NCBI RefSeq assembly: GCF_963664965.1 | Contig: NZ_OY761823.1 | Span: 1,994,001 to 2,058,000 of the forward strand | Direction: 5' to 3' | Origin: an uncultured Pseudodesulfovibrio sp. | Lineage (GTDB): Bacteria; Desulfobacterota; Desulfovibrionia; Desulfovibrionales; Desulfovibrionaceae | DNA: 64,000 nt | In this document: positions 8,433 to 37,506 of the stretch, one piece after another | Position numbering within the stretch: position 1 is the stretch's first letter | Layout of the letters: each line of letters opens with the position of its first letter | The notes under the pieces: model-generated | The model's database searches: none | The model's input: only the letters and a program-made list of their open reading frames with translations | Told to the model about the DNA's origin: nothing | Position numbers and translations under genes: made by a program

Positions 8433-9362
8433 TTAGGCTTCGTTGGGTGCAGCTTCTTCAACAGCGTTCTTCTTGGCACCGCGGCTGGCCCAGACGATAC
8501 CGCCGATGATCAGTGCGCCGGAGATGAAGTGAACGGAAGTCATTTTTTCACCGAGGAAGACAAAGGCGAACAGACCGCCCCACAGAGGCAGGGAGTAGTA
8601 GATCATGCCACACAGCTGCGGGCCTGCCTTTTCAAGGCCGATGTTCCATGTCCACCAGGCGATGATGGAGGAACAGATGGCGGAGAAGGTGATGGAGAAG
8701 AGGACGATGCCGTTCATGTTGAAGACCATGGTGGGCAGGGTGGATTCCCAGATGACGCAGGGGATGAGCATGAGTACTGCGAACAGGGTCATGAGGTACA
8801 TGATGGTACCGCTGGACAGGCCTTCGGGAGTCTTTTTGAGGAGCAGGCTGTAGATGGCGAAACCGACGGCAGCGCCGAGCATCAGGATATCACCGGCAGC
8901 GAAGTGCATGCCCAGAATCTGATTGATGTCACCTTTACTGACGAGGTAGAAAGAGCCGAGCAGGGCGACGATACAGCCAGCCCATGTGTTGAAGGACTGC
9001 TTCTGACCCATTCCGGCGGCGATGATGACGATGAAGATCGGGGTGGTAACGGAAATGAGCGAAAGGTTGATGGCGGAAGTTGTCTGTGCCGCGAAGTAGC
9101 TGAGCGGAGAGTATGCGGCGATACCGAACAGGGCGGAAGCGATGATCTGCGGCAGGAAAGTCTTGGCGATAGGCCATTCCTTTTTCACTTTGGGCAGCAT
9201 GAAGGTGCTGAGGATAAGCAGAGCCATGCCCCAGCGGGTCGCACCGAGAGTCATGGGTGAAATTTCACCAACAGCCAGACGTGCGATAATGAATGCGCCC
9301 GCCCAGAGAACGGTGGCCAGCAGTGCATAGAGTGAACCGATTACAACTTGATTCTTGAACAT
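8433..9362 (-). CDS. EamA/DMT-family membrane transporter
   Basis: The 309-residue protein has ten predicted membrane segments made of two EamA repeats. The first starts LYALLATVLWAGAFIIARLAVGEISP; the second contains WNIGLEKAGPQLCGMIYYSLPLWGGLFAFVFLGEKM, the usual repeat-end signature. Such proteins mostly export amino acids, nucleosides or other small metabolites; the substrate here is unknown. A sigma-54 promoter (9591-9606) and three palindromic activator sites lie upstream, and the adjacent upstream gene is a sigma-54 activator, so expression is probably switched on by a small-molecule or redox signal sensed by that regulator. Confidence 0.9.
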   Translation of the reverse strand: MFKNQVVIGSLYALLATVLWAGAFIIARLAVGEISPMTLGATRWGMALLILSTFMLPKVKKEWPIAKTFLPQIIASALFGIAAYSPLSYFAAQTTSAINLSLISVTTPIFIVIIAAGMGQKQSFNTWAGCIVALLGSFYLVSKGDINQILGMHFAAGDILMLGAAVGFAIYSLLLKKTPEGLSSGTIMYLMTLFAVLMLIPCVIWESTLPTMVFNMNGIVLFSITFSAICSSIIAWWTWNIGLEKAGPQLCGMIYYSLPLWGGLFAFVFLGEKMTSVHFISGALIIGGIVWASRGAKKNAVEEAAPNEA

Positions 9363-9590
9363 TTTTTACTCCTCGAAACGGTGATTGTTCATCCTGCATT
9401 CCTGTTTGTTTCAACGCATGTTTTTATATGTGGCATGCCCCCATGCCAAAGATGCAATGTAGTTCGTGTGCGTTGCAGGAATTGACGAATGTAAAATTTC
9501 CTTCCCTCTGTAGATGTGTGCTTTATTTCCTCCTTGCACAGTATGAATTGTCTTATGCCTTTTTGTGATGCTTTTTGTGAAATGTATAAA

Positions 9591-9606
9591 AGCAATCGAT
9601 ATGCCA
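9591..9606 (-). promoter_or_regulatory. Sigma-54 (-24/-12) promoter for the EamA transporter
   Basis: On the minus strand the sequence reads TGGCATATCGATTGCT, matching the consensus TGGCAC-N5-TTGCW with the invariant GG and GC ten bases apart. It points toward the transporter start 229 nt downstream. A second TGGCAT near 9452 lies inside a palindrome and has the wrong GG-GC spacing. Confidence 0.75.
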
Positions 9607-9701
9607 AAGATTCAACAGAAGCCTTTGGATAAAAATGCTTTTATTTCAAGTGGTTGAAAGCGCGATTGATTGATTGTTCGATCAATCTGAAGGCGTGAAG
9701 C

Positions 9702-9795
9702 GAGTCATTTTCGACTCAAGTTCGGCAAAAAAAGGCTAGATGGCGCGGGAAAAAGGTCGTGAGTCTGGCGCGACTCGTCGAGTCGTTTATGACTC
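9702..9795. promoter_or_regulatory. Three perfect GAGTC-N6-GACTC palindromes, likely activator (UAS) sites
   Basis: Identical half-sites with six-base spacers occur at 9702-9717, 9761-9776 and 9780-9795. They lie about 100-190 bp upstream of the sigma-54 promoter, the usual enhancer distance. The six-base spacer matches the TGTAAA-N6-TTTACA layout of TyrR boxes, and the neighbouring regulator ends in a TyrR-like helix-turn-helix. The last site overlaps the 3' end of the regulator gene. Confidence 0.7.
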
Positions 9796-11150
9796 GGTTT
9801 CAGATGTGTATTTTCGAATGAGGCGAGTGGCCCGGGATTGGCTGATTCCGAGGGCGAGGGCGACTTTGCGGGAGCTGCCGTGTGTGGCCTTTGCTTCCAG
9901 TATCAATTTGCGTTCTACTGCGGCGAGTGTTGCATCAAGTGAACCGTGCGAAATGCCATCGCTGATAGCCGGGGTGTTCTCATACAGTGTGGTTGGAAGG
10001 TCATCGACCGTGATGATTTCATTTTCCGTTGTGACTATGAGCCGTTCGACAAGATGGGCAAGTTCACGAATGTTACCCGGCCAGGAATGTTGACAGAGCA
10101 GTGATTGAGCTTCTGGAGAAAGTTGCTTTGCGGCGTGGTGTTTCTTTCCGTAATGATTGAGAAAATGAAATAGAAGGGGGATGATGTCGTTCCGCCGTTG
10201 CCGGAGTGGCGGGATGGTGATGTCAAACACGTTGAGCCGGAAGAAAAGGTCCTGTCGAAACGCGCCGGTACTGGCCATGCGTTCAAGGTTTCTGTTGGAT
10301 GCTGCCAGAATGCGTACGTTCGCTTTTACCGGTGTCGAGCTGCCGACCGGGCGGTATTCCATTTCCTGTACTGCATGCAGCAGTTTGGCCTGCATGGGAA
10401 GGGGGAGTTCCGAAATCTCGTCAAGGAACAGGGTCCCGCCTTCGGCCTTGGCAAAGAGACCTCCGCGGGCTGTGGTCGCACCTGAGAATGCACCTTTTAC
10501 ATGTCCGAAGAGTTCGGATTCGAACAACTGTTCCGGAATGGCCGCGCAGTTGACGACCACGAACGGAGTTTCGCTGCGTCCACTGTTCGCATGGATGAAT
10601 TTTGCAAGCAGGCTTTTTCCGCAACCGGATTCGCCGAGCAGCAGGCAGGGGGCGCTCAGTCCGGCGACCTTTCGGGCAGCCTGTATGACGTTGTCCATTG
10701 CGTTGCTGTGATAAATGAGGTTTTCCGGACGTGGATCGGTGAGCAGTTCCTGCTTGGAGTCCAGCTCATCAAGCGTCGGTATTTGTCCCTTATGGAAATT
10801 GTCGCGGATGCTTAGGATGACGTATTCCACCTCTCCTTCCGCATCCAGAATGGGGACGGCGATGGTCAGGACGTCAATGCCGAGAAATGTTTTCTGTTCC
10901 TGTTTAATCGGTCGTTTGTGCTCGTACACCGCGGGGAGGGCGGGACGGTTCCATCCGGCGTGTTTTCGAACAATTTCCAGAACGGCAGGCCGACCATTTC
11001 TTCCTGCGTAAAGCCGTAATGGCGCTTGCATGCCTTGTTCACGTACAACATGCGATAGTTGTTGTCGTAGATGATGACTTCATCGTGGAGATTGTCGATG
11101 AGTCTGGCAAAGGTCTCGAAATCAAGTCCGAAATGTTCAGTTTTGGTCAT
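9787..11150 (-). pseudogene. Sigma-54-dependent activator (PAS, AAA+, TyrR-like HTH) split by a frameshift
   Basis: The 5' part (from the ATG at 11150) encodes a PAS domain (LIDNLHDEVIIYDNNYRMLYVNKACKRHYGFTQEEMVG). The 3' part, in another frame, encodes the rest of the sensor region, an AAA+ domain with Walker A GESGCGKS, a GAFSGA loop (the sigma-54 contact, normally GAFTGA) and Walker B TLFLDE, then a C-terminal HTH (SSRKVALALGISQSRATRLIRKY) closest to TyrR. The switch maps near 10950: inserting one base there would join ENTPDG to NRPALPAVYEHKRP in one frame. It is either a disrupted gene or a missing base in the assembly. It presumably controls the EamA gene downstream. Confidence 0.8.
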
Positions 11151-11168
11151 GTGCAAGTTGTGCTGCGG

Positions 11169-11182
11169 GCGTTTGCAAACGC
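11169..11182. promoter_or_regulatory. 14-bp perfect palindrome upstream of the sigma-54 activator
   Basis: GCGTTTGCAAACGC lies 19-32 nt upstream of the regulator's ATG. The position and symmetry suit an operator for the regulator gene, but the binding protein is unknown. Confidence 0.35.
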
Positions 11183-11294
11183 ATGGCTGTTATTTGATTC
11201 GTTCCCCGGAGCGGGCGGGAATTGTATACCAAAAACGGGGTGAAAAGGCTATGCAGGTTTTTGATGGATGGCAGGCTCTGCGTCTGTTGCTTCG

Positions 11295-12479
11295 TCAGGC
11301 GAGTGAAAGAAGGACTTCGTTCAGTCGGTGTGCATCAATGAAGGGGCTGCTTGTCGGGGTAACCAGTTTCGTGTCGATGATCTCTACCCCACGGCCTTTG
11401 AGGCCCGGAAGGTCTATTCCGTTTGGGTAATCGGCATTTCGCGAATCAATGAGAACCAGTTCAAGGCCAGCTATTTCATTGGGAGCGCCACTGCGTACCA
11501 AGTGTTTTTGCAGAGTGCCCACCTGATCGGCAACGCTCATTCCGATTGTTTCCGGGTCCGCGGTCGTATTGGGGACAAAGAGTTTGGGGCAGGTGTTTTC
11601 CGCGATGGTTCTGCCTGTTCCCTGCGGTATCAGGTTGGCGATCACACTGGAATAGAAGCTGCCGATCGGGTAGCAGATCAGGCTCGCTTCGGCGATACAG
11701 TTTCGGGTCTTGGGGCTGATGGGCGTCTGTACCGGCTTGTCGCTGTCGAGCGAATCTGTCAGCCAGATATCCGTAATGGCTGATGCGAGCGGAGCGACTT
11801 CTTTTGCCGTGATGTTGTGTTGTCCTACGACAATGTTGCCGTTTTGGAGATGGACAGCCAGATGCAGATTCTTGTTGATGGTCGCACGGACGCGGCCATG
11901 TACGTGAGCAAGACGTGAAAATATGTCGATTACCGGATCAAGCTGGCGTCGGTTGGTGAGGTATCCGGCAGTGAGAACAAGATTGCCTATGCTTGCCCCT
12001 TTGAGATTGAAGTCCGGGGGCATGAGTTTGATGAAATTCTTGAAGTGGTTGCAGATAACCCGGCGCATGGGGGCGGGAATGTCGCGCACCAACGGGTTGT
12101 TGGCTTGCGCCATGTCCTTCAATTCTTTTTGCAATTCATCCTGTTGTGCTGTTTTTGAGAGGCGATATGTAAAAAGTTCGAATATTTCAGGGTTGCCTTT
12201 GACGGACTGGTCGGCCAGCGCCATGAGACGGTTACGGATGTCGCCTACGGCGGGCATGCCAAATGCTTCACGCAGCACTGCGGAACTCCCGCCGGAGTCA
12301 AACGGCGTGATCAGGTGAATTGAGTTGTGCGTATACCGGATAAGCTCTCGCGAAGCTTCCCGCAGGGCCGTGCCTCCGCTGAAAAACAGAATGTGCGGAC
12401 CACGCTCCGGAGTCTGTTTGCAGAGTGCCAGCTTGCGCTGGTCCGGTATCCTTATTGTGCGTGTAGAACAGGAGGGCAT
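11295..12479 (-). CDS. CofD-like protein of the GAK system
   Basis: The 394-residue protein has the CofD/YvcK-type opening ILFFSGGTALREASRELIRYTHNSIHLITPFDSGGSSAVLREAFGMPAVGDIRNRL and later GASIGNLVLTAGYLTN, EVAPLASAI and LICYPIGSFYSSVIANL. CofD transfers a 2-phospholactyl group in F420 synthesis; this longer, divergent form matches the CofD-related member of the GAK system described by profile in Desulfovibrio-type genomes, whose function is unknown. The assignment is supported by the XXXCH protein just upstream (12 nt gap, same strand). F420 synthesis is not implied. Other GAK members (ATP-grasp, HprK-related kinases, amphi-Trp protein) are not in this window. Confidence 0.75.
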   Translation of the reverse strand: MPSCSTRTIRIPDQRKLALCKQTPERGPHILFFSGGTALREASRELIRYTHNSIHLITPFDSGGSSAVLREAFGMPAVGDIRNRLMALADQSVKGNPEIFELFTYRLSKTAQQDELQKELKDMAQANNPLVRDIPAPMRRVICNHFKNFIKLMPPDFNLKGASIGNLVLTAGYLTNRRQLDPVIDIFSRLAHVHGRVRATINKNLHLAVHLQNGNIVVGQHNITAKEVAPLASAITDIWLTDSLDSDKPVQTPISPKTRNCIAEASLICYPIGSFYSSVIANLIPQGTGRTIAENTCPKLFVPNTTADPETIGMSVADQVGTLQKHLVRSGAPNEIAGLELVLIDSRNADYPNGIDLPGLKGRGVEIIDTKLVTPTSSPFIDAHRLNEVLLSLA

Positions 12480-16973: not shown

Positions 16974-17065
16974 GGAGAGGTGGCAGAGCTCGGTTTAATG
17001 CGCTGGTCTTGAAAACCAGAGGCGGGGCAACTCGTCCGGGGGTTCGAATCCCTCCCTCTCCGCCA
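16974..17065 (+). tRNA. tRNA-Ser (anticodon UGA)
   Basis: The acceptor arms GGAGAGG (16974-16980) and CCTCTCC (17055-17061) pair perfectly. The anticodon stem CTGGT/ACCAG encloses the loop CTTGAAA with anticodon TGA. A long variable arm typical of class II tRNAs is present, the T arm reads GGTTCGAATCC, and CCA is encoded. The 3' end is the integration site of the genomic island. Confidence 0.96.
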
Positions 17066-17128
17066 TAGATCATAATCACTTCATGTCAGAAAGTGTCATA
17101 AGCCCTCGAAATGAGGGCTTTTTTGTTG
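17051..17128. repeat. attL direct repeat (tRNA 3' end plus terminator)
   Basis: The 78-bp repeat matches 37429-37506 with six mismatches, all within 17070-17090. The first 19 bp (tRNA 3' end and CCATAGA) and the last 38 bp (hairpin terminator) are identical. The crossover core is most likely in the first 19 bp. Confidence 0.9.
17100..17124 (+). terminator. Rho-independent terminator of tRNA-Ser
   Basis: AAGCCCTC-GAAAT-GAGGGCTT is followed by a run of T. An identical copy lies at 37478-37502 in the right repeat. Confidence 0.85.
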
Positions 17129-17171
17129 TCTTTAGCGTGTCTTGAGATGTCATGTTGTGTCATGGCGTGGC

Positions 17172-17228
17172 TGGTATAAAGGTACAAAAAGTGGTATAAT
17201 TCAAATTATACCATTTCGCTTTATACCA
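17172..17228. repeat. Left arm-type integrase sites (TGGTATAA repeats)
   Basis: Four copies of TGGTATAA/W occur: 17172-17180 and 17192-17201 direct, 17204-17213 and 17220-17228 inverted. The middle two form a palindrome with 10-bp arms. The same motif recurs near the right end, as expected for arm-type sites bound by the integrase. Confidence 0.6.
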
Positions 17229-17243
17229 CTTGCAGGAGAACTC

Positions 17244-18464
17244 ATGCCGTTGACAGATGCTAAGATCAAAGCTGCTAAGCCGAAAGGCAAACAATACACC
17301 ATAAATGATGGCGAGGGCCTGTCTATCGTCATTAATCCAAATGGGCGTAAGTGGTGGCGCTTCCGCTACCAGGTGAATGGTAAGAGGACCATGCTCTCTC
17401 TGGGGAGGTATCCGTACATAGGGTTGCAGGATGCTCGCCTTAAGCGGGGGGATATGAAGACTCTTATTGCCAAAGGCGAAGACCCATCCTTGAAGCGCAA
17501 AGAAGAGAAGAGAAAGACTAGTGCTAGCGAGGCATTTGAGGCCATTGCTCGTGAGTGGTTTGGGAAGCAGGTAGACTCCGGTTGGAGTGAACGCCATGCC
17601 AAGACTACCATGGAACGGATGGACAAGAATATATTCCCTTTCATTGGTGGTCGTCCCATCTCAGAACTTGGTGTTGAGGATATGCTGAATGTCGTTCAAC
17701 GCTGTGAGAGACGCGGGGCTGTGGAGACGGCGCGGCGTATTCGCCAAATCATGTCTCAAATATTCCGTTACGCTGTTGCTGCTGGCCGAGCTGAGCGCGA
17801 TCCCGCTGCGGACATCAAGGGCGTGCTTCCCCCTGCTAGGAAGGTGAAACATCACGCCAGTATTACCGACCCTAATAAGATTAAGATCCTACTTCGAGCT
17901 ATTGATGGCTTTGACGGTACTTTGGTGGTTCATTGTGCTTTAAAATTGGCTCCACTGGTCTTTGTGCGTCCAGGGGAGCTCCGGCACGCAGAGTGGGGGG
18001 AAATCAATTTTGAGGGCTGTGAGTGGAGAATCCCTGAAGAGAAGATGAAGGGAGGCAGTCCGCATATTGTCCCATTGTCTGCTCAGGCTGTGGAGATCCT
18101 GAGGGACGTATCTGGATTAACCGGACCTTCAGGCTATATCTTTCCAAGTGTTCGCACAGCAGCGCGGCCAATGTCCGAGAATACAATCAACGTGGCACTT
18201 CGGAGGCTTGGATACGACAAGACCGAAATGACCGGTCATGGATTTAGGTCTATGGCCTCCACGCTTTTGAATGAGCATGGTTGGAATCGGGATGCGATTG
18301 AGCGACAGTTGGCGCATACGCCGAAAGATAAAGTAAGGGCCAGCTATAATTATGCTGAGCATTTGCCTGAACGGAAGCGGATGATGCAGGCATGGGCTGA
18401 TTATCTGGATAGCTTGAAGGACGGTGGGAAAGTAGTCCCGCTGTTTGCTCAGAAGGTAGGGTAA
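17244..18464 (+). CDS. int: P4-type tyrosine recombinase (integrase)
   Basis: The 406-residue protein starts MPLTDAKIKAAKPKGKQY after an AGGAGA ribosome site. It has the N-terminal DUF4102 domain of P4-like integrases (residues 1-90), a SAM-like core-binding domain and the catalytic domain with Arg in VRPGELRHAEW, HGFRSMAS (His-x-x-Arg), the distal His in LAHTPKD and the Tyr nucleophile in RASYNYAEH. It catalyses integration at the adjacent tRNA-Ser 3' end. The gene lies next to attL, directed into the element, the standard layout for this family. Confidence 0.95.
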   Translation: MPLTDAKIKAAKPKGKQYTINDGEGLSIVINPNGRKWWRFRYQVNGKRTMLSLGRYPYIGLQDARLKRGDMKTLIAKGEDPSLKRKEEKRKTSASEAFEAIAREWFGKQVDSGWSERHAKTTMERMDKNIFPFIGGRPISELGVEDMLNVVQRCERRGAVETARRIRQIMSQIFRYAVAAGRAERDPAADIKGVLPPARKVKHHASITDPNKIKILLRAIDGFDGTLVVHCALKLAPLVFVRPGELRHAEWGEINFEGCEWRIPEEKMKGGSPHIVPLSAQAVEILRDVSGLTGPSGYIFPSVRTAARPMSENTINVALRRLGYDKTEMTGHGFRSMASTLLNEHGWNRDAIERQLAHTPKDKVRASYNYAEHLPERKRMMQAWADYLDSLKDGGKVVPLFAQKVG

Positions 18465-27893: not shown

Positions 27894-29291
27894 CTACTTC
27901 GGTGCCATATCCTCTGTGCTTCCAAACCAAATCCAAGGCTTATCAATATCTGGCCTGTCGCATTTCCAAACATTTCTGATTTGGTGGTTGAGGAAGCCAA
28001 TATATTCTTTTTCTGATTGAACCCCATGAAGCTTATTGCTTGCTTGTTCTTTGTTAATCGTCGCCAAGTCACAAAAGACTGGATACTGCTTGTATTTTGA
28101 AATGAATGAAATCAATCGAGATAGCCTCGGCTTTGATGTCGCAGCTATATTTGAACCGTATCCATATACGAAGTCGGAATAATATCTGTCAAATTCTTCA
28201 GTCCTCATCAATGCAACGCATTCGTCCTCTGTTCCGCAGAATTCAAAATTTTTATTGGTAACAACAACGACACTGTGTACCGGAAGCATGTCATAACAAA
28301 TCTGCTTTGCTGTATCGCCAAGCAGCCGACGTGCTCGATCTGCCTGTCTTATCGGACTGTGTATCACCGTGTCGTCGCTATCTCTCTTCCATTGTGAGGC
28401 GTTGCCATTGCTGCTAGCAACAGGCCGCCAATGGCCGTATAGGTTTTTGACTTCAACATGGAGCAAGCCATGCTGGGTGACAACTAGAATGTCAAACTCA
28501 CATTTCTTTTCATTGATGCTTAGTCCTAATCCCCAGTATACGATGCCTCCCCCAATACTTTTTACAACTTCGAGAACTTCAGCTTCTCCTCGCAATCCTG
28601 CGCTTGTCGTTCCTCCATTGTCGATGGAATTTTGTTTTGGAATGGCGTTTATGCGCTGTTGATACCTAGGGGTAACAACTAGGGCTGTTTTAGGATGATA
28701 GACTCTTTTGATTTTGGTCTTGGGAACATATCGGCCTGATTTTTTCTCATAATCTGCTGCGAGGGGAGACCTTGTTCCTGCTTTTTCGTTTTGGTGGTCA
28801 AGATTTTTCGTCGGCATATGCTCAGGGGCATAGGGTTTCTTGCCTTTCTTTTTTAGTCGCAAGTACATCAGCAGAATGATCCCGAGCGCTATGAGTATCC
28901 CGATTCCGACTTGATGGTAGGGGGATTTTTGATCGTCAATTTGAGCAAGCCACCCAGCATCTTTGCTTGCCTTTGCCATTACAACTTTTTCACCTGTTCC
29001 CGTATTCGTCACCGAAATGACAGCGAGTTCTATTTGTGGACATTCAGCATCCAAGATGGGGCCGATTTTGTTTTTAAAGAATGGTCCAATCCCTTGAACT
29101 GCCAACGGACTATTGGGAGCAAGCCGGATTTCTACTTTGACCAAGCGCTGGCACCAATTGAGTTGATCTGACAGGATATAGATGTCAGCACCGAGCTTTT
29201 TTGAGTAAGCCAGATGATGATTGGCGGCCAGCGCCGTAGTTATCCAAAAAAGGCAAACACCAGATAGGATGATTGCACGAAATAGTTTCAT
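27894..29291 (-). CDS. Membrane-anchored NERD-domain nuclease-like protein
   Basis: The 465-residue protein has a signal peptide (MKLFRAIILSGVCLFWITTALA), an extracytoplasmic domain (residues 24-125; AYSKKLGAD, Trp46-Cys47, Cys84), one membrane helix (about 128-145) and a cytoplasmic part. The latter contains a NERD/PD-(D/E)XK-like core: GLRGEAEV (Glu236), CEFDILVVTQHGLLHVEVK (Asp267, Glu280-x-Lys282). It therefore links an envelope sensor-like module to a putative nuclease inside the cell. The N-terminal module is shared with the adjacent gene at 29363-31624. The ATG at 29291 is chosen because the signal peptide starts there. Confidence 0.72.
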   Translation of the reverse strand: MKLFRAIILSGVCLFWITTALAANHHLAYSKKLGADIYILSDQLNWCQRLVKVEIRLAPNSPLAVQGIGPFFKNKIGPILDAECPQIELAVISVTNTGTGEKVVMAKASKDAGWLAQIDDQKSPYHQVGIGILIALGIILLMYLRLKKKGKKPYAPEHMPTKNLDHQNEKAGTRSPLAADYEKKSGRYVPKTKIKRVYHPKTALVVTPRYQQRINAIPKQNSIDNGGTTSAGLRGEAEVLEVVKSIGGGIVYWGLGLSINEKKCEFDILVVTQHGLLHVEVKNLYGHWRPVASSNGNASQWKRDSDDTVIHSPIRQADRARRLLGDTAKQICYDMLPVHSVVVVTNKNFEFCGTEDECVALMRTEEFDRYYSDFVYGYGSNIAATSKPRLSRLISFISKYKQYPVFCDLATINKEQASNKLHGVQSEKEYIGFLNHQIRNVWKCDRPDIDKPWIWFGSTEDMAPK

Positions 29292-29362
29292 AGCATGTCG
29301 TCCAGATAAGCAAACACCGACCCCCACGTGGGAGGCCGGTGCGTTGTTTTATTTCGAATCGA

Positions 29363-31624
29363 TTAATATACCGTTTTTGTCGTGATCTTTGTCTTTTTTA
29401 GATACAACTCATCTGTCAAAGTGAGAACAGTAAGGACTTCTTTGCCGTTGGAGTAAATCTGAGCTTCCACAGCAGAGACAGGCAACTGCAAGTTTTTTCC
29501 GGTAGGTATGTTTGACCTGTCATCAGTTATCCGTTTGCCCCATGTAAAGGCAACACAGTCGCTCCTGCTTACGCTTAAATCAGGCTCGCCAAATTTTTTG
29601 ACCAAGCCTTCAATAATCGCCTCTCTTTCTTCAATTGAGGCGGTTTGTTTGAGTGTGGCTTGCTTCAAGGAATACACTGGAGAGCCGAGTCCCATGAGTG
29701 ACTTTCCTGTTTGTACAAATTTTCCTTCAAAATAGCGCAATCCTGAAGTGATAGTGTCTTTGTTGAAGAAGTCGGACACGAAGAGTTCTTCAGGGGATTT
29801 AAGAACTTTGGTGCTTTCGTTGTACCTTGTTTCCAACTGAAGTTTGTCTTCAAGAATATCCTGAACATCTCCAATTTCCATGCCGCCATGGAGTCCAGCG
29901 ACATCAAGCTCTCTGGCGGTTCTTGTGTCTTGTTTTTGAACGTATTTCTGTTTTGAACTATTGGCTTTGACAGACCAATTAATCCAATTACTTTTCTGAA
30001 ATGGTCTTTCAACTTTCACCGCGTATGCGGTTTCAGAAACATATACCACAACGCCTTTACCGCCTTTCCACGGATCGTTCTTGTAACCAACAGGGGTTGC
30101 CATAAAGCCCGCTCTGGTATTGACAAGCGTTAGTATGTCCTGAGGTTTCTTTTTGATTTGAGCGAGTACATCTTGCGGTACGTTTTGCTTTACAAACTCT
30201 TTCCAGTTTTGAATGACAATGTTGACTCGTTCGCCGTTGTCGGCTTTGTATTGGTATTGGAGTTGTCTTTCGGTATTTCCTAGTGCCACAGAGTTGTTTC
30301 TTTTGTTGTAAGTGGCTGAAACTTCTATGGCTAATGGTCTCCGTACGTCGATGCCATTAACCATATGTGTGTCTGTAGGAGAGGAAAGGTAGTTGAAGTG
30401 CGCAAGTGCCACGTTTCCATTCACCACAAGAGGTTCAACTCCTCTTTCTATGCGATCAGCACGTGCTGCAGCTTCTTGTGCCTTTCTGGTCTTTTCTTCT
30501 TCAAGTTGCTGTTGGCGTGCCTTTTCTGCTTCCATTAACGCCGCTTGCTTTTTTTCGATTTTAGCACCTAGCCAAGAGTGCGGGAATTCGTAAAAAGCTT
30601 TCCCCGTGCGTTTATTGATGATTTTTGCAGAGTGTAAAATGGTATGAACGACTGCATCGTCATTCCCTCCTGCGTACTGATCCCACCGGAATATCTTGAG
30701 AGTGGCTGTAATCAGCACTTCTCGATAGCTCAGGGTCTTCAGCAGTGATTCTGCTTCATCCGGGGACATAGGCAATTCTTGAATGAACTCGCCGCCATTG
30801 ATTTTAAGAGTGATTTTTTTGGGGAATGTCTGGTTTGATGGGCATCTCCAACTGCTAGGTCTATCAAAGCTAAATGTCGCATCTTCTTTCAGCGGCTGAA
30901 AGGGGAAGGCTTTTTTTTGAAGATTGTATTTTCCTACTTTGCTACGAATGGAAAGAGTTATGTATTCTGGAGAAGGTTTATCCAGAAAGGCAGTGGCTTC
31001 CTGCGTGTAGCTTTTTCCCAGTTTGGCCAATTTGATTTCATTGCTTTTGGCACTTGAATATTCTTTACAGTGCTTGAGCTTCAAATAATCGAAGATGGCA
31101 TCCGGGTTGGAAAGGACACTCTGCGAGCTCGGCATGACCCCTTGAATCAGATTGAGGTACTCAGCTTGTACAGGTTTAATGCTTTCTTCTTTAATAGAAG
31201 GGGCCGGAGCCTCTTTAGGGGGCGTTACGGCTATTTCGTCCAGTGCTTTCCCCTTAGTTTCAAGAGGAGTAACCGTCCATCCATTGCTGGAGGTTCCTGT
31301 GTAGCTGGACATGGGAGTTGTTCCACCATTTTTAAATACATCAAAACGAGCTGATGTTGCAGAAGAACAATCATTGGTGATGACGGTCCCAACCTTTATC
31401 AAAAAGCCTTCAATGCCGCCCTTCAGAAGGGGGCTGTTGTCATCCAAGTTAACTTTGACGGAAACGGCATCTTTGCACCAACTTCCGCCTGCCTGATCTG
31501 CAAAGACCTCGGCACCCATCTTTTTGGAATACGCGAGGCGATGCCAGTCAGCGCCATGCGCAAAGCCACTAGAAATGATCAGTGCGCAGACTGTGAGTGC
31601 TATAGCCTGTATTGTGTTTTTCAT
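29363..31624 (-). CDS. Large secreted or periplasmic protein sharing a module with the NERD protein
   Basis: The 753-residue protein has a signal peptide (ending SSGFAHGA). Its first 100 residues match the N terminus of the neighbouring NERD protein: HRLAYSKKMGAEVF, Trp49-Cys50, NSPLLKGGIEGF, Cys86. The rest has an Ala/Glu/Arg-rich coiled-coil stretch (MEAEKARQQQLEEEKTRKAQEAAARADRIERG) and beta-rich regions without a recognised family. It starts 2 nt after the SH3 lipoprotein gene, with GGGAGA upstream, so the two are co-transcribed. Function unknown; an envelope location is likely. Confidence 0.6.
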   Translation of the reverse strand: MKNTIQAIALTVCALIISSGFAHGADWHRLAYSKKMGAEVFADQAGGSWCKDAVSVKVNLDDNSPLLKGGIEGFLIKVGTVITNDCSSATSARFDVFKNGGTTPMSSYTGTSSNGWTVTPLETKGKALDEIAVTPPKEAPAPSIKEESIKPVQAEYLNLIQGVMPSSQSVLSNPDAIFDYLKLKHCKEYSSAKSNEIKLAKLGKSYTQEATAFLDKPSPEYITLSIRSKVGKYNLQKKAFPFQPLKEDATFSFDRPSSWRCPSNQTFPKKITLKINGGEFIQELPMSPDEAESLLKTLSYREVLITATLKIFRWDQYAGGNDDAVVHTILHSAKIINKRTGKAFYEFPHSWLGAKIEKKQAALMEAEKARQQQLEEEKTRKAQEAAARADRIERGVEPLVVNGNVALAHFNYLSSPTDTHMVNGIDVRRPLAIEVSATYNKRNNSVALGNTERQLQYQYKADNGERVNIVIQNWKEFVKQNVPQDVLAQIKKKPQDILTLVNTRAGFMATPVGYKNDPWKGGKGVVVYVSETAYAVKVERPFQKSNWINWSVKANSSKQKYVQKQDTRTARELDVAGLHGGMEIGDVQDILEDKLQLETRYNESTKVLKSPEELFVSDFFNKDTITSGLRYFEGKFVQTGKSLMGLGSPVYSLKQATLKQTASIEEREAIIEGLVKKFGEPDLSVSRSDCVAFTWGKRITDDRSNIPTGKNLQLPVSAVEAQIYSNGKEVLTVLTLTDELYLKKTKITTKTVY

Positions 31625-31626
31625 GA

Positions 31627-32547
31627 CTACAGAATCTCCCAAGCGCCATCAGTGCCTTTACTGGCGACAACGGTCTTTTCTTCCTCGCCCTTAGGAGTGG
31701 ACACTTTCATTGTCACGGTACGGGCCGGAGCCTCAACCTCGACTCGTTCAGCAATGAGGTCTTCGGTCGTTTCGTCATCAGGGTAGCTTGCGACCATTTC
31801 ATCGAGATCTACAGCAGGGCGTACAGCTTTAGCTGTTTGCAGGTCCTCGGAAAGGGCGTCTAAGTCGTGGGCAGGAGTCATGACAGCGGGTTCTTTGGCT
31901 GCGACTTTCTGCTTCTCCAATGTACCTTCTTTGCCGATAAGTGAAGCATGGATGTAACCAATGGCTTGGCGATTTTGGTTCACCAAAATCCAGTTCTTAC
32001 CCTTTACCTGACCTACAGCAAGGACAACGCTTCCTTTTTTCAGCACCTTTGCAACGTCATAATCCATTGAAGGACCGAGCCGCACATTGGAATCAGTCAA
32101 AATTTCATAAGCCTCGCCAATCAGGGTAAGCTTTCCAGGTTTCTCAACTTCTTTGCGTCGTACGATTGGGACTTCACGTTCAATCGTCTCAGTCTTTTCT
32201 ATTTTGATTTCAGCTTTTGCTTTGGTGTCCGGGTTTTCCCACTTCACGGTCTCGCCGTCTTTAGATTGTGAAAGGGCTTTTGCAGACTCTCGCTCCACCG
32301 CAAGACGATCTTGTTCATCGAGATACCCACCGATTTGGTTGCCAATAAAGCCACCTGCAAGGGCGCCAATGCCAATAGCAATAGCTTTACCTGCTCCTTT
32401 GCCGAAGAAGAGGCCAACAGTACCGCCAAGGACGGCTCCGACAGCCGTGCCGGTTTCTTTTTTTGTGGCCTGACAGCCAGCTAAGAGCATGGAAAAAATA
32501 AGAAGAAAAATACAAGTTCGGACAGCAAACCGTTTGTGAGTAGGCAC
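31627..32547 (-). CDS. Glycine-zipper lipoprotein with SH3-like domain
   Basis: The 306-residue protein has a lipoprotein signal with lipobox LLAGC (Cys about 25). Next is a glycine-zipper segment (GTAVGAVLGGTVGLFFGKGAGKAIAIGIGALAGGFIGNQIGGYLDEQD), like the 17-kDa surface antigen family. A central SH3b-like domain follows (EILTDSNVRLGPSMDYDVAKVLKKGSVVLAVGQVKGKNWILV). It is probably an outer-membrane-attached protein binding peptidoglycan or other envelope partners. First gene of a three-gene minus-strand cluster with the 753-residue protein and the NERD protein. Confidence 0.75.
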   Translation of the reverse strand: MPTHKRFAVRTCIFLLIFSMLLAGCQATKKETGTAVGAVLGGTVGLFFGKGAGKAIAIGIGALAGGFIGNQIGGYLDEQDRLAVERESAKALSQSKDGETVKWENPDTKAKAEIKIEKTETIEREVPIVRRKEVEKPGKLTLIGEAYEILTDSNVRLGPSMDYDVAKVLKKGSVVLAVGQVKGKNWILVNQNRQAIGYIHASLIGKEGTLEKQKVAAKEPAVMTPAHDLDALSEDLQTAKAVRPAVDLDEMVASYPDDETTEDLIAERVEVEAPARTVTMKVSTPKGEEEKTVVASKGTDGAWEIL

Positions 32548-33140
32548 AGCAATACCTCTTTATACGTTTCAGGCTAACTATAAAATGTACGGAAAGCTGT
32601 AGAGCAAAGGAAGGTCATGCAACCCGGCTGTCTCGCACTCGCTGAGACCCGTGGCTTTCCGTCTCCGCCTCGCGGCGGATTTGGCAAAGATTGATAGATA
32701 TCGATATAGTACGCTTGAATATGTGTCAATGCGTATCATGGTGTGGCGTAGCTCCTATCTTTCATTTGAGGTCGGGCAACTTAAGGGGGGGAGATGCCCA
32801 GAAAAAAATTGTGGGTACTGGATCAAACGAAATTGGTTTATCTGTCGGTGGCATGATGAATGGTGTGTTTACATCCAGTTTCAACGAAGGGAGGCGTGGG
32901 CGGTGCAGATTCAATGCATGTGGTGTGTGCTTGAGAATGTGTCTTGGCACCATGATGGCTTTTTGCTGGTGAGTGGCCATCTTTAATGGAAGGCGGTAAA
33001 AGTTATCATGTCCGCATAAGTTGGTATTAGGTTGGAAGAAGTCGGTAGAGCAGATGGGCTAGGATATTTACGGAATGACATGTCGCAAACATGCTTGTAT
33101 GTATAGCCCTGCAATAGTTTGCTGGAAGGAGATATTATTG
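32548..33140. other. Intergenic region with a 74-nt stem-loop element
   Basis: No convincing gene. ACGGAAAGC (32589-32597) and GCTTTCCGT (32654-32662) form a 9-bp outer stem enclosing a second stem GTCTC/GAGAC (32630-32648). This may be a small structured RNA or the leader of the divergent genes. The promoters for the lipoprotein cluster and for the large cargo gene must lie here. Confidence 0.4.
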
Positions 33141-35573
33141 ATGCATGAAAAGACCACTATAACAGCCAGTGTGCGCCCTCAGAAGGTTGCGGTTGTTGTT
33201 CCCGCAGACATAAGTGAGGCTGATTTTAGAGATGTGATTCAGTTTGTGGGGTGGCTGTGGGGAGGGAATTATTCGTGCGTGATCCCATTCGACCTTGCCA
33301 GTGGTGATAACGAGTTGCCCTTATCCTGGATTGAGCAGTATTCGCCCGATCTTATTTTGTGTATCAATCGTGATATAAAAGACAAGCTTGAAGGCAGCAT
33401 AGAAGAGTGTACAAATCCTCCCTTCCATCTAGCCGTGCTACATGAGCCTTTGGTGGATAATTTCCATTACAATTCTAACGGAATTCTTCCATGGGGCCCT
33501 GCCTACCTGCGTTATGTTAAAGAGATAAACTCTATGCCTAGTGTCACAACTCGCTATAGGTTTGTTAGCACAGACGAGGGGGTTGAGAATCGCATTTTTT
33601 ACGACTTGTCATACGGGATTCATCCGAAGGAAGAGTGCGAGGCATTAGCCAAGCATTTAAAAGCAAAAAACGTACACATAACAGACGGCTCCATTCCCAC
33701 TTTTATAGATTCCCACGACGATGCTGAATATCCTTTTTCCTACCTCGATTTAGCAGGAATTGAATTGAATACGATCAATTCTTTTGGTGGGGCTCCAACA
33801 ATATTCGTCTTATCTCGAAAGGTGCTTGACTATGCGTGGTTTTGGAACTGCCGTTTTGATTTTTCTCGCGGAGGGAATAACTGCATACCCGTTCCGGTAG
33901 ACATGATTGACGACGAAGAAACTGTCCAAGCTCTGGCTTCGTGGATAACAGGGTATCACTCTGGAAGATCGACCTATTGTGAGGTTAAATCTCTTTCAGC
34001 GCCAAAAGCCGCTTTGAGTAGATTAGCTGCTAGGTTGCGCCCGAGAGTGAGGAAGCACGGGGTTCAGCATGTTGATGTGAAACACTGTGCCTTCCCGGTG
34101 ATTCCTTTTGTGAATGTTTATCATAAGTCCCATGATATTACGGCGGTTTGGATGGATCGGAATAGTTTTGAGCTTGAGCCCCCCAAGCCTGCATTTATTG
34201 ATGAACTTGGTAGCGATAGGTCTGGGCGCTGGGTTGTCGGGGTTGATGGAGGGACCAATTTGAAAGGACATGCCCCACCAAAGTCTGCATATAAAACGAA
34301 TACTAAGGTTCTATGCGCTCCTTCTCAAGCCTCTCCCTCTTGGGTAATGTCTGGCTATTCGCGCCGTTATTCCGGTGGCAATATTTTGATACCCTGTTCG
34401 GAAAAGAGAGATAATATCTCATTGACCCTACCTACAGCAGAGGAGCTGTTTCAGCCCTTTTTTTCTGGATTAGGCGTAGGAGCTAAGAATGACGAGAAAA
34501 GGACTTGCTATGAGGCCACTTTCGACCTGTTTGGTGGGCTGAGATATTTTGCTGAGTGTTGCAGGAACTTGAGATATAATATTTTGGCATGCTTATGGTC
34601 TGATAAGGAAGTGCCTTGTGAGAAGAATGGTTTGGCATACTCGAAAGGGTGTCACGTTAAGCAGGCCGATGCTCCAACGCCTGTTTCTTTTTCAAAAATT
34701 CGCAGTAACAAGCACGTAGCCAGGGGGTGGAAAAAACCATTTTCTGACAACAAGATTCCCCTGTCAGACCCGTTAATGTCTAGCATATATGAATCCCGTT
34801 GCAGTAGAGAGGGGGGACTTTATTATTGCAATTATCCGAGTACCTTTCTGACATGGCTTGTCGAGGCCAATATCGTGCGAAAAGTGTTTTGTTACCCAAG
34901 GTGCTCAAACTGTTTGAGTAAGGCAAATTGGGTTACAAAGATCGATCTGGAGAAAAAATTCTATTGCTCTCGTTGCGGCAGCTACATTCCTTCGCACGAA
35001 TCCCAATTTGATATGGAATATCAGTTGAATCCATTGGTTTGCAGGGCCTTTGATGAGGGGATTAGGCCTGTTGCACTGACTTTGGATGTGTTGAGGGATG
35101 CTTGTAGTGGATTCATGTTTCTTCCTGGATTTAAGGGAAAACGAAATGACGTGTATTTTGATATTGATATTGTTGCAGCCTGTAATGGGCATCTTGTCTT
35201 ATGCGAATGCAAGGACATGTATGGAGCATCTGGCCGGAGCAAGGGGTGGGGGAAGATTAAAGAGCAATTTTCTGATTTGATTGATTTTGGAGAGTTGTGT
35301 GGGGCAAGTTCCGTAGTTCTTGCTTCCTTGGCAGATACTTACCCTGGAGCAATCCATGACATGGTGAAACGCCGCTCAACGGATAAAATGCGAATCGTTT
35401 TATTAGGAAAAGATGAATTGCTGCGGGGGAATGTCCAGATAAAGCGTGAAGATGGCGGGGAGCGTCGTGCAATGTTCTATGAAGCGTTTCTTCATCCGCC
35501 AAAGAGAAGAAAGAAGAGAAAAGGTGAGCGTAAAATCTCATTTGGTTGGGGCACACGCCAATCGGGTGAATAG
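33141..35573 (+). CDS. Uncharacterised 810-residue protein, zinc ribbon plus PD-(D/E)XK-like domain
   Basis: The ATG at 33141 is chosen for its AAGGAG site; an in-frame start at 33075 adds a poor leader. The N terminus (KVAVVVPADISEADFRDVIQFVGWLWGGNYSCVIPFD) is unrecognised. A four-cysteine ribbon (CSNC ... CSRC, about residues 587-612) precedes a restriction-endonuclease-like core with an acidic FDIDIV strand and LVLCECK (Glu689-x-Lys691). No helicase, methylase or transposase motif is visible. It lies in the cargo end of the island, 82 nt before a second gene with its own ExK core. A nuclease-type defence role is inferred from domain and position. Confidence 0.6.
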   Translation: MHEKTTITASVRPQKVAVVVPADISEADFRDVIQFVGWLWGGNYSCVIPFDLASGDNELPLSWIEQYSPDLILCINRDIKDKLEGSIEECTNPPFHLAVLHEPLVDNFHYNSNGILPWGPAYLRYVKEINSMPSVTTRYRFVSTDEGVENRIFYDLSYGIHPKEECEALAKHLKAKNVHITDGSIPTFIDSHDDAEYPFSYLDLAGIELNTINSFGGAPTIFVLSRKVLDYAWFWNCRFDFSRGGNNCIPVPVDMIDDEETVQALASWITGYHSGRSTYCEVKSLSAPKAALSRLAARLRPRVRKHGVQHVDVKHCAFPVIPFVNVYHKSHDITAVWMDRNSFELEPPKPAFIDELGSDRSGRWVVGVDGGTNLKGHAPPKSAYKTNTKVLCAPSQASPSWVMSGYSRRYSGGNILIPCSEKRDNISLTLPTAEELFQPFFSGLGVGAKNDEKRTCYEATFDLFGGLRYFAECCRNLRYNILACLWSDKEVPCEKNGLAYSKGCHVKQADAPTPVSFSKIRSNKHVARGWKKPFSDNKIPLSDPLMSSIYESRCSREGGLYYCNYPSTFLTWLVEANIVRKVFCYPRCSNCLSKANWVTKIDLEKKFYCSRCGSYIPSHESQFDMEYQLNPLVCRAFDEGIRPVALTLDVLRDACSGFMFLPGFKGKRNDVYFDIDIVAACNGHLVLCECKDMYGASGRSKGWGKIKEQFSDLIDFGELCGASSVVLASLADTYPGAIHDMVKRRSTDKMRIVLLGKDELLRGNVQIKREDGGERRAMFYEAFLHPPKRRKKRKGERKISFGWGTRQSGE

Positions 35574-35655
35574 GGGGACTGTCTCCATCTTTGGACAAGT
35601 TTCTTAATGAACGGAACGGCTAGATTTCAAGAACTCGTTGTGATGAAATGATGGT

Positions 35656-37311
35656 ATGAAAAAGAAAGTCGGTAGAAATGATCCATGCCCTTGCGGTAGT
35701 GGCAAGAAATTTAAGTACTGTCATGGTGCCGGAAGTCCTTTCCTTCGCAAAAAAGCTATGAAGGCAGAAATTGAGAAGATGAGTCAGCAGGCTGAGGCTC
35801 TTGAACAACAGCGAGGTCAACAGCAAGGCCAGGGGAAGCGGATAGTTTCTACAGAGGGGGCAGGACATAGATTTGTAGCTGTTGGTAGTGAGTTAATGGC
35901 CTCCAGTAATTGGAAGTCTTTTCATGATTTTCTCTACGAGTATCCCCGTTTTGTATTTGATGAGGATTGGGCAAAGTCTGAACTTGCAAAGCCTATTGAT
36001 GCGCGACACCCGATACTTCAATGGTATGAAATGACGCTCAAGCATCATAAATCCTATGGGGAGGGGGACGGGAGTGTGCAGCCTGTGCCTATGATTGGCG
36101 CTAACGCCGCCTATATGCACCTCTCTTACAATCTGTATCTTTTAGCTCATAACGTAGAATTACAGCGCCGACTTGTTAATCGTTTGATGAATATGGATCA
36201 GTTTCACGGAGCGTATTATGAAACATCCGTGTTTGGCGCTCTTATAAAAGCAGGATTCTCCATTGAATTAGAAGATGAGTCAGATGGTAGTTCGAGCCAT
36301 TGCGAATGTGTCGCGACTTATAAGTTGTCGGGGGAGAAGTATACGGTTGAGGCGAAAGCTAGAGGGGTTGAAGGGCTACTAGGTAAGGGGCCGCACCAAG
36401 GTTCCCCCGCAGATGGAGAGGTAAAAATATTTAATAAGTTACGGGACGCCCTTGGTAAAGAGAGCGACTATAACCGGATTGTTTTCATAGACACGAATGT
36501 ACCGCACACAAAGGATGGTTTGGATTGGGAGCCTTGGATGGAGAAAGTTTTGGCTGACCTTCGGAATTTTGAGGGCACTATGCTTGTGTGGGGTGAAGAG
36601 GCCCCTCCTGCCTATGTGTTCATCACAAATTACCCTTATCATCATGAACCGGACCGAGATGATTACCGTATTGCTATGATGGCCGAAGGCTTTAAGATAC
36701 CGGATTTTAAAGTCGGTGGAACTTTCTATAATCTAAGGGATGCAGTCATAGCTAGGGATAAACATAAAGATATGTATGATCTTGCTGAAAGCATGGTGAA
36801 TGTGGAAATACCCTCTACATTCGATGGGGAATTGCCTGAGTTTGCTTTCAAAATGATAGATGTGCCCCGGTTGATAATTGGGCGGAAGTATTTGGTGCCT
36901 AATCCAGACGGTGAGGAAGAACCCGGCGAGTTAGAGAGTGCTGCCGTATTGGAAAATGAAAAAATGGTGTATGGAACCTATCATCTTGAAAGTGGGCGAA
37001 GGATTATTTGCTCATGCCCAATCAGTGATGTTGAGCTAGAGGCATACCGGAAGGCTCCTGATACATTTTTTGGAGCAGTTCATCCGGTGACAAAGAAATC
37101 GGAGAGCCCTGTGGACCTTTATGATTTCTTTCATTCGACAGCAAAGGATATGACCAAAGAAAAAATGTTGGATCATCTGGCAAAGCATCCCCGGATCGAA
37201 GAGTTCCAGAGCATGGGGCAACAAAGCTTGGCCTTTGAATATGCGCTCGTATATGCTGAGAGTGCATGGATACAGTCTCGCAAGTCATTGGCAGCCCGAA
37301 AAATGCAGTGA
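35656..37311 (+). CDS. SEC-C motif protein with PD-(D/E)XK-like core
   Basis: The 551-residue protein starts with a SEC-C zinc motif (GRNDPCPCGSGKKFKYCHG; Cys11, Cys13, Cys22, His23), then a Gln-rich helix. A central segment has ETSVFGALIKAGF and later YTVEAKARG (Glu232-x-Lys234), the helix-Glu ... ExK pattern of restriction-like nucleases. The C-terminal third is unrecognised. It is the last gene before attR and probably shares a transcript with the 810-residue gene. SEC-C motifs recur in proteins of defence and stress loci, but no function can be assigned. Confidence 0.65.
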   Translation: MKKKVGRNDPCPCGSGKKFKYCHGAGSPFLRKKAMKAEIEKMSQQAEALEQQRGQQQGQGKRIVSTEGAGHRFVAVGSELMASSNWKSFHDFLYEYPRFVFDEDWAKSELAKPIDARHPILQWYEMTLKHHKSYGEGDGSVQPVPMIGANAAYMHLSYNLYLLAHNVELQRRLVNRLMNMDQFHGAYYETSVFGALIKAGFSIELEDESDGSSSHCECVATYKLSGEKYTVEAKARGVEGLLGKGPHQGSPADGEVKIFNKLRDALGKESDYNRIVFIDTNVPHTKDGLDWEPWMEKVLADLRNFEGTMLVWGEEAPPAYVFITNYPYHHEPDRDDYRIAMMAEGFKIPDFKVGGTFYNLRDAVIARDKHKDMYDLAESMVNVEIPSTFDGELPEFAFKMIDVPRLIIGRKYLVPNPDGEEEPGELESAAVLENEKMVYGTYHLESGRRIICSCPISDVELEAYRKAPDTFFGAVHPVTKKSESPVDLYDFFHSTAKDMTKEKMLDHLAKHPRIEEFQSMGQQSLAFEYALVYAESAWIQSRKSLAARKMQ

Positions 37312-37428: not shown

Positions 37429-37506
37429 CCTCCCTCTCCGCCATAGAACATTATTACTTCATCTCAAGAAGTGTCATAAGCCCTCGAAATGAGGGCTTTT
37501 TTGTTG
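37429..37506. repeat. attR direct repeat
   Basis: This copy matches 17051-17128, including the tRNA 3' end sequence and the terminator hairpin (37478-37502). It marks the right boundary; host genes (umuC) resume directly after. Confidence 0.9.

Follow-up and report, generated by a model that had tools for sequence, protein, structure and literature searches.

Two unnamed nuclease-like genes as separate candidates for anti-phage defence in the attR-proximal cargo slot of a Pseudodesulfovibrio tRNA-Ser element

Here we describe two neighbouring genes, A and B, at one end of an integrative element in an uncultured Pseudodesulfovibrio sp. (contig NZ_OY761823.1, positions 1,994,001 to 2,058,000; this whole stretch of 64,000 nucleotides is called the window, and positions are those of the window unless another locus is named). 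On balance we favour reading A and B as a stack of two anti-phage defence candidates of nuclease type, each a single gene independent of the other, in the attR-proximal cargo slot of an integrative element specific to a tRNA-Ser gene. An initial annotation of the same DNA had reported an 810-residue and a 551-residue protein encoded on one strand 82 nucleotides apart at the cargo end of a tRNA-integrated island, and had supposed that the two act as a pair; both open reading frames (ORFs) and their setting were recovered as described, and the pairing was not.

Nuclease-like defence cargo is the likely identity of the two genes, for which we infer nuclease activity, a trigger, a nucleic-acid substrate and protection against phage. 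Beyond the SEC-C motif of B, neither family is named by Pfam, NCBIfam or PADLOC, in agreement with the earlier statement that no named system matches. Open literature searches listed no paper recognizable as a description of family A or B, which is not proof of absence from print.

The tRNA-Ser element and its cargo slot

The element lies at the 3' end of a tRNA-Ser(TGA) gene, with a tyrosine integrase gene directly after the tRNA gene and a direct copy of the 19-bp attachment (att) repeat at the far end (Table 1). Its genes have a G+C content of 45-46%, compared with 53-55% in the flanks. A and B are the last two genes before attR, share a strand and are separated by positions 35574-35655. 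Just outside attR, a hairpin with a run of T is probably the original terminator of the tRNA-Ser gene, displaced by the island. Directly left of gene A, a three-gene block on the minus strand (27894-32547) encodes a NERD protein (PF08378), whose domain is preceded by hydrophobic stretches, together with a DUF4852 protein and a glycine-zipper/SH3 protein that resembles a lipoprotein.

The tRNA-Ser gene was searched for in 36 genomes of the genus, and 29 other loci, some of them short, were read. A long integrase match stands right after the tRNA gene in six of these and a partial one in two; the six belong to sister species, whose integrases are 80-88% identical at the same tRNA. A second att copy is visible in four of the six elements, and of the four attR-proximal slots so delimited, a small sample, two hold clear known defence genes and one a candidate (Table 1). 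The first encodes an Avs2-like protein with a viperin-like radical-SAM protein, the second both parts of a Dsr1-like system, and the third, the candidate, a RelA/SpoT protein with a 37-kD nucleoid-associated protein. The tRNA-Ser(TGA) element family of the genus thus carries different defence genes in its attR-proximal slot, and the defence setting claimed in the initial annotation has gained substance. The strongest argument for counting A and B among defence genes is this occupancy of the slot in sister elements, and a slot for defence cargo would also explain why two unrelated genes stand side by side.

Several observations weigh against this assignment. The fourth delimited slot (G405, L154) holds only a transposase-like ORF by our reading of its sequence; another element (G424, L155) shows no second att copy along 19.1 kb, and neither of the two ORFs scanned there, one of them a Tn3 transposase, has a PADLOC match; a further element (G423, L158) is cut by its contig. 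The structural model of gene A is poor overall (pLDDT 53.8), and one A relative (L117) has Thr in place of the catalytic Lys. Finally, PADLOC models show no visible excess around B relatives over more distant genes of those loci. In this comparison, internal to loci other than L039, the near group was drawn from 174 listed ORFs, the closest on either side with a length of at least 110 aa, and 91 of them were set beside 76 of 122 far ones: 123 models were found for the near genes, the 25 listed reaching at most 3 of the 91 genes each, and varied defence models are listed for the 76 far genes. The missing contrast points to no fixed partner of B and to no controlled enrichment.

A further possibility, which we hold to be unlikely, is that A and B serve not phage defence but the element itself (stability, competition with other elements or DNA processing), or some other function of the cell. 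Nuclease folds also act in recombination and repair, and the NERD, DUF4852 and glycine-zipper/SH3 genes show that the same island houses genes unrelated to A and B, all of which would suit such a role. It fits less well with the known defence genes in the same slot of sister elements, with the patchiness of both families, or with those members that stand beside restriction-modification (R-M), Abi-like or toxin-antitoxin genes.

Architecture and conservation of the two proteins

From the N-terminus on, the gene A product has alpha/beta modules, a middle region, a zinc ribbon and finally a PD-(D/E)XK-like nuclease domain. No model in the libraries searched fits this architecture; no PADLOC 2.0.0 model matches at E ≤0.001, the best reaching E 0.029 over 27 residues. 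The start that yields 810 aa has AGGAG nine bases upstream, and an alternative in-frame ATG at 33075 would yield 832 aa. In the 14-row family alignment, counted over rows with data, G42 of the first module is kept in 13/13 and W40 in 11/13, while W235 of the second module is kept in 13/13; the model has blocks for residues 11-110 at pLDDT 60-85. An origin of the two modules by internal duplication is unsupported (hhalign 1.2%).

The zinc ribbon and the FDIDIV...ECK core noted in the initial annotation are both present. The four ribbon cysteines are conserved (C588 in 13/13, C591 in 12/13, C609 and C612 in 12/12 rows with data), the odd row at C591 being the ragged end of a fragment, L119. FDIDIV...ECK supplies D676, E689 and K691, of which the first two are kept in 11/11 rows with data and K691 in 10/11. 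The Thr variant (L117, 4530-10814) lies 12 nucleotides after a 1226-aa ORF that has no Pfam or PADLOC match, with an integrase nearby. The sole Foldseek match of gene A in the PDB at E 0.001, KaiC, was judged meaningless (probability 0.63, rmsd 24 Å).

Gene B encodes, in order, a SEC-C motif, an alpha/beta part, a PD-(D/E)XK-like domain and a Tudor/SH3-like barrel; the SEC-C motif and the helix-Glu...EAK core had likewise been recognized earlier. Cys11, Cys13 and Cys22 of the C-x-C...C-H/C motif are present in 44/44 rows with data, and E189, E217, E232 and K234 are kept in 46/46 aligned proteins, so the ExK residues hold up as conserved in both families, distant relatives included. The model of B shows the element order alpha-beta-beta-beta-alpha-beta, which is the order expected of a PD-(D/E)XK fold. 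PADLOC 2.0.0 matches gene B only within residues 1-56, that is, in the SEC-C motif and its edge. Residues 4-25 match structures of the SecA tail and YchJ, the rest of the protein being unmatched to them, and B has no match at E 0.001 in a viral structure library. The profile and structure comparisons proposed in the initial annotation gave a mixed return: likeness of the A core to Can2 and a confident model for B on the one side, and on the other the poor model for A and no Foldseek match of B in the PDB at E 0.001. Judged by their motifs, A and B are both candidate PD-(D/E)XK-like nucleases; as relatives of each other they show no detectable kinship (0.1-0.2%).

Table 1. Features of the element and its cargo, and of the corresponding slots in sister elements (positions in the window unless a locus is named)
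Feature	Position	Strand	Basis or remark
tRNA-Ser(TGA)	16974-17065		integration site of the island
attL, 19-bp repeat	17051..17069	+	at the 3' end of tRNA-Ser(TGA)
Tyrosine integrase	17142..18464	+	PF00589, PF22022, PF13356
Gene A, 810 aa	33141..35573	+	ORF and translation; family alignment with 13 relatives
A, residues 13-118, RP...WGG...IP module	33177..33494	+	Rossmann-like alpha/beta in the model
A, residues 216-320, second alpha/beta module	33786..34100	+	FWN-R motif
A, zinc ribbon C588-C591...C609-C612	34902..34976	+
A, residues 638-762, PD-(D/E)XK-like nuclease domain	35052..35426	+	core D676, E689, K691
Gene B, 551 aa	35656..37311	+	ORF and translation; model pLDDT 90.2
B, residues 7-24, SEC-C zinc motif	35674..35727	+	PF02810, E 5.1e-10
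B, residues 183-279, PD-(D/E)XK-like core	36202..36492	+	helix (E189), strand, strand (E217 at edge), strand (E232-A-K234), helix, strand
B, residues 403-455, Tudor/SH3-like barrel	36862..37020	+	missing from shorter relatives
attR, direct copy of the 19-bp repeat	37429..37447	+
Hairpin with T run	37478-37498		just outside attR
Slot in G422	L153, 8511-14563		Avs2-like protein (PADLOC E 2.9e-123); viperin-like (pVip-like) radical-SAM protein (3e-17)
Slot in G412	L156, 7388-11250		SIR2 protein and 934-aa protein, matching the two parts of Dsr1 (3.1e-60, 1.1e-124); split Dsr1-like genes
Slot in G416	L157 (reversed), 9103-11835		RelA/SpoT protein (candidate PDC-S33, 3.9e-8); 37-kD nucleoid-associated protein

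Occurrence and neighbours of the two families

Both families are patchily distributed. Relatives of A were found in 4 of 395 genomes of its own phylum (its own included) and in 6 of 398 of a second phylum, or about 1-1.5% of the genomes sampled, and in none of the 35 other genomes of the genus; at E <1e-20, B was found in 2 of 297 genomes, its own included. Two genomes were not counted for A: in G456 the match covers only the nuclease core of what reads as an ATPase-like protein, and in G435 it spans 54 positions with three stops. L118 and L119, on two contigs of genome G595, could be parts of a single gene; they enter the counts as two loci.

Phage records hold no match to A at E 0.01 and 22 to B, and among the 20 of these listed the match reaches no farther than residues 1-39. 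Viral contigs gave nothing with gene A as lone query and one locus with the B alignment: the IMG/VR contig L096 (7373-9034) encodes a B relative with 30% identity over query residues 1-548. Plasmids hold no match to A at E 1e-5. Six weak plasmid matches appear at E 10, two of which (L035 and L036) are family members by profile; H31 and H32 (L034 and L037) entered the first alignment (A1) and were dropped from A2, A4, A5 and A7, the nuclease part alone being aligned, and H6-H8, H33 and H34 lie outside the sample.

The initial annotation took A and B for one two-component defence system, in which one part senses and one or both cut, and it had itself made the pairing depend on co-occurrence elsewhere. 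In this genome the shared strand, the 82-nucleotide gap and the nuclease-like character of both proteins would fit such a system, as would the gap itself, where a scan of the + strand that yielded no more sites than shuffled sequence listed no promoter-like or terminator-like site; co-transcription here is possible. Elsewhere the two genes part company. The A profile, run against ORFs of at least 80 aa at 55 B loci (50 genome contigs and 5 plasmids), found A at none of them, although the flanks extend at least 2.6 kb upstream in 43, downstream in 45 and on both sides in 38. Conversely, the B profile found B at none of 13 A loci, 10 of which show the 3' side. The 3' side is unseen at two fragments (L119 and L122) and at L116, where the contig ends inside the gene; since L116 is the closest relative of A (50% identity), its hidden 3' neighbour leaves the two-component system some room. 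Among the 50 genomes from which the genome-contig B loci come, a clear A relative was found only in G470, on contig C30 (66,670 bases), with the B locus on a separate contig of 58,913 bases. Because one in 50 is near the background rate of A given above, and the two share no loci, A and B appear to move independently between genomes. An obligate pair is rejected on these counts, and we consider a two-component system of any kind improbable, more so than a role outside defence.

The neighbours of relatives are mixed. Among A relatives, L114 adjoins type IIG-like R-M genes, L036 an annotated PrlF/YhaV pair with an AbiJ-like gene further upstream, and L035 an annotated HTH/PIN pair; L117 and L120 lie near integrases, and L094, L116, L119 and L121 have no defence-type or integrase neighbours in the genes scanned. 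Among B relatives, that on the Caballeronia plasmid L027 is flanked by an integrase on one side and a type I R-M set on the other. Clustering of the neighbours at 54 of the 55 loci (L039 dropped out because its B ORF was lost in ORF selection) brought out no conserved partner of B, as no other cluster exceeded five loci. The rhizobial B relatives L029 (7190-8017) and L031 (7170-7973) share an upstream ORF of 267-275 aa with CxxC motifs, possibly a partner in that rhizobial branch only.

Signal gating, mechanism and relation to known systems

In a sequence-profile search the core of gene A matches Can2 (8bao, E 5.6e-4), and by hhalign it matches the DUF1887-type nuclease domain (P 2.2e-5, probability 76%); both matches are limited to a core of 28-52 residues, so kinship of the whole domain does not follow. 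The top rows of the structure comparison are Cdn1, Can2, VC1899 and Card1, aligned from residue 215-216 of gene A and residue 1-12 of their chains, which puts residues 216-320 on the CARF end of Can2 and Cdn1. Can2 is a cA4-activated DNase and RNase that confers immunity in E. coli, according to the excerpted text of PMC7969007, and this precedent makes a ligand-gated nuclease plausible for A. Gene A might thus, as a special form of the reading that we prefer, be a Can2/Card1-type nuclease working without type III CRISPR, whose Rossmann-like N-terminal modules would bind a nucleotide signal and switch the nuclease on.

We treat this idea as tentative. Over two domains the rmsd is about 20 Å, and with a model of A as poor as the present one the N-terminal match may be a mere common Rossmann arrangement. 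Profile comparison does not support CARF homology: the N-terminal regions of A reach 0.4-1.6% probability against a profile of 11 Card1 homologues (built from 11 of 12 loci after removal of L170 and of an antisense ORF in L172). No CARF family is among the Pfam matches of the 14 A-family members, and the PADLOC model CARF_PDDEXK matches two of the 14 (best E 0.0018), its match in gene A itself falling in the nuclease core. The Cas10 model PF22335 has four matches in the host genome, none over the cut-off, which is exceeded in 3 of 10 genomes that carry A relatives. The test is a blunt one, as the model also matches in an E. coli control. Elsewhere in the host genome, outside the window, an ORF for a SMODS nucleotidyltransferase (518 aa) adjoins a 320-aa ORF (L163, 439-2966) that reads as a patatin-like phospholipase, the two reading as a CBASS-like pair. 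Equally speculative is the wider proposal that family A comprises widespread but rare stand-alone signal-gated nucleases, in which a zinc ribbon and a double Rossmann-like sensor would control a nuclease of Can2/Card1 type, independently of type III CRISPR and in response to a nucleotide or some other signal.

Returning to A and B as two separate defence candidates, each protein would combine a PD-(D/E)XK-like nuclease with a sensing region. In A, the two N-terminal alpha/beta modules and the zinc ribbon may sense an infection cue, either a ligand or a nucleic acid, and thereby free the Can2/Card1-like nuclease at the C-terminus. In B, the SEC-C motif and the Tudor/SH3-like barrel may recognize a protein, ribosome or nucleic-acid feature, which would place or release the E189/E217/E232/K234 nuclease. 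The SecA tail, a small metal-binding domain studied for nascent-chain recognition in the excerpted text of PMC6620043, suggests by analogy that the SEC-C motif of B binds protein or ribosome. Either A or B would then cut nucleic acid of the phage or of the cell.

Two unnamed nuclease-like families join the pool of testable defence candidates and, with A and B indicated as separate genes, each can be tested alone. Were gene A gated by a nucleotide, Can2/Card1-type effectors would reach beyond type III CRISPR. The attR-proximal slot of the tRNA-Ser element family is in addition a place to look for further defence systems.

Each candidate resembles known proteins in part. Shedu-like single-gene PD-(D/E)XK defence nucleases are stand-alone genes that join a sensor part to a nuclease. 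Compared by description, A and B differ from such nucleases in their PADLOC results, A falling short of every model at the threshold above and B matching in its SEC-C end alone. SEC-C proteins such as the SecA tail, YecA and YchJ have in common with B the motif at its residues 7-24, to which B adds the PD-(D/E)XK-like domain and the barrel. The DUF1887 proteins Can2, Card1 and VC1899, CARF-PD-(D/E)XK effectors of type III CRISPR, have chains of 355-436 residues in the structure comparison, whereas the 810-aa product of gene A adds a zinc ribbon and a middle region of roughly 300 aa. Gene A shows no CARF homology by sequence, and its host genome has no Cas10 match over the cut-off. CoCoNuTs mix zinc ribbons and nucleases. 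These McrBC-type systems share with gene A a zinc ribbon and a defence setting, as far as the excerpted text of PMC11090510 describes them, but neither Pfam nor PADLOC finds a GTPase or coiled-coil family in gene A. The element as a whole finds a counterpart in the hotspot-specific mobile elements of E. coli, in which, according to the excerpted text of PMC10121019, one element type at one preferred site likewise carries diverse defensive cargo and integrase-only islands also occur; the family described here differs from those in using tRNA-Ser(TGA), in belonging to another phylum and in carrying two unnamed gene families.

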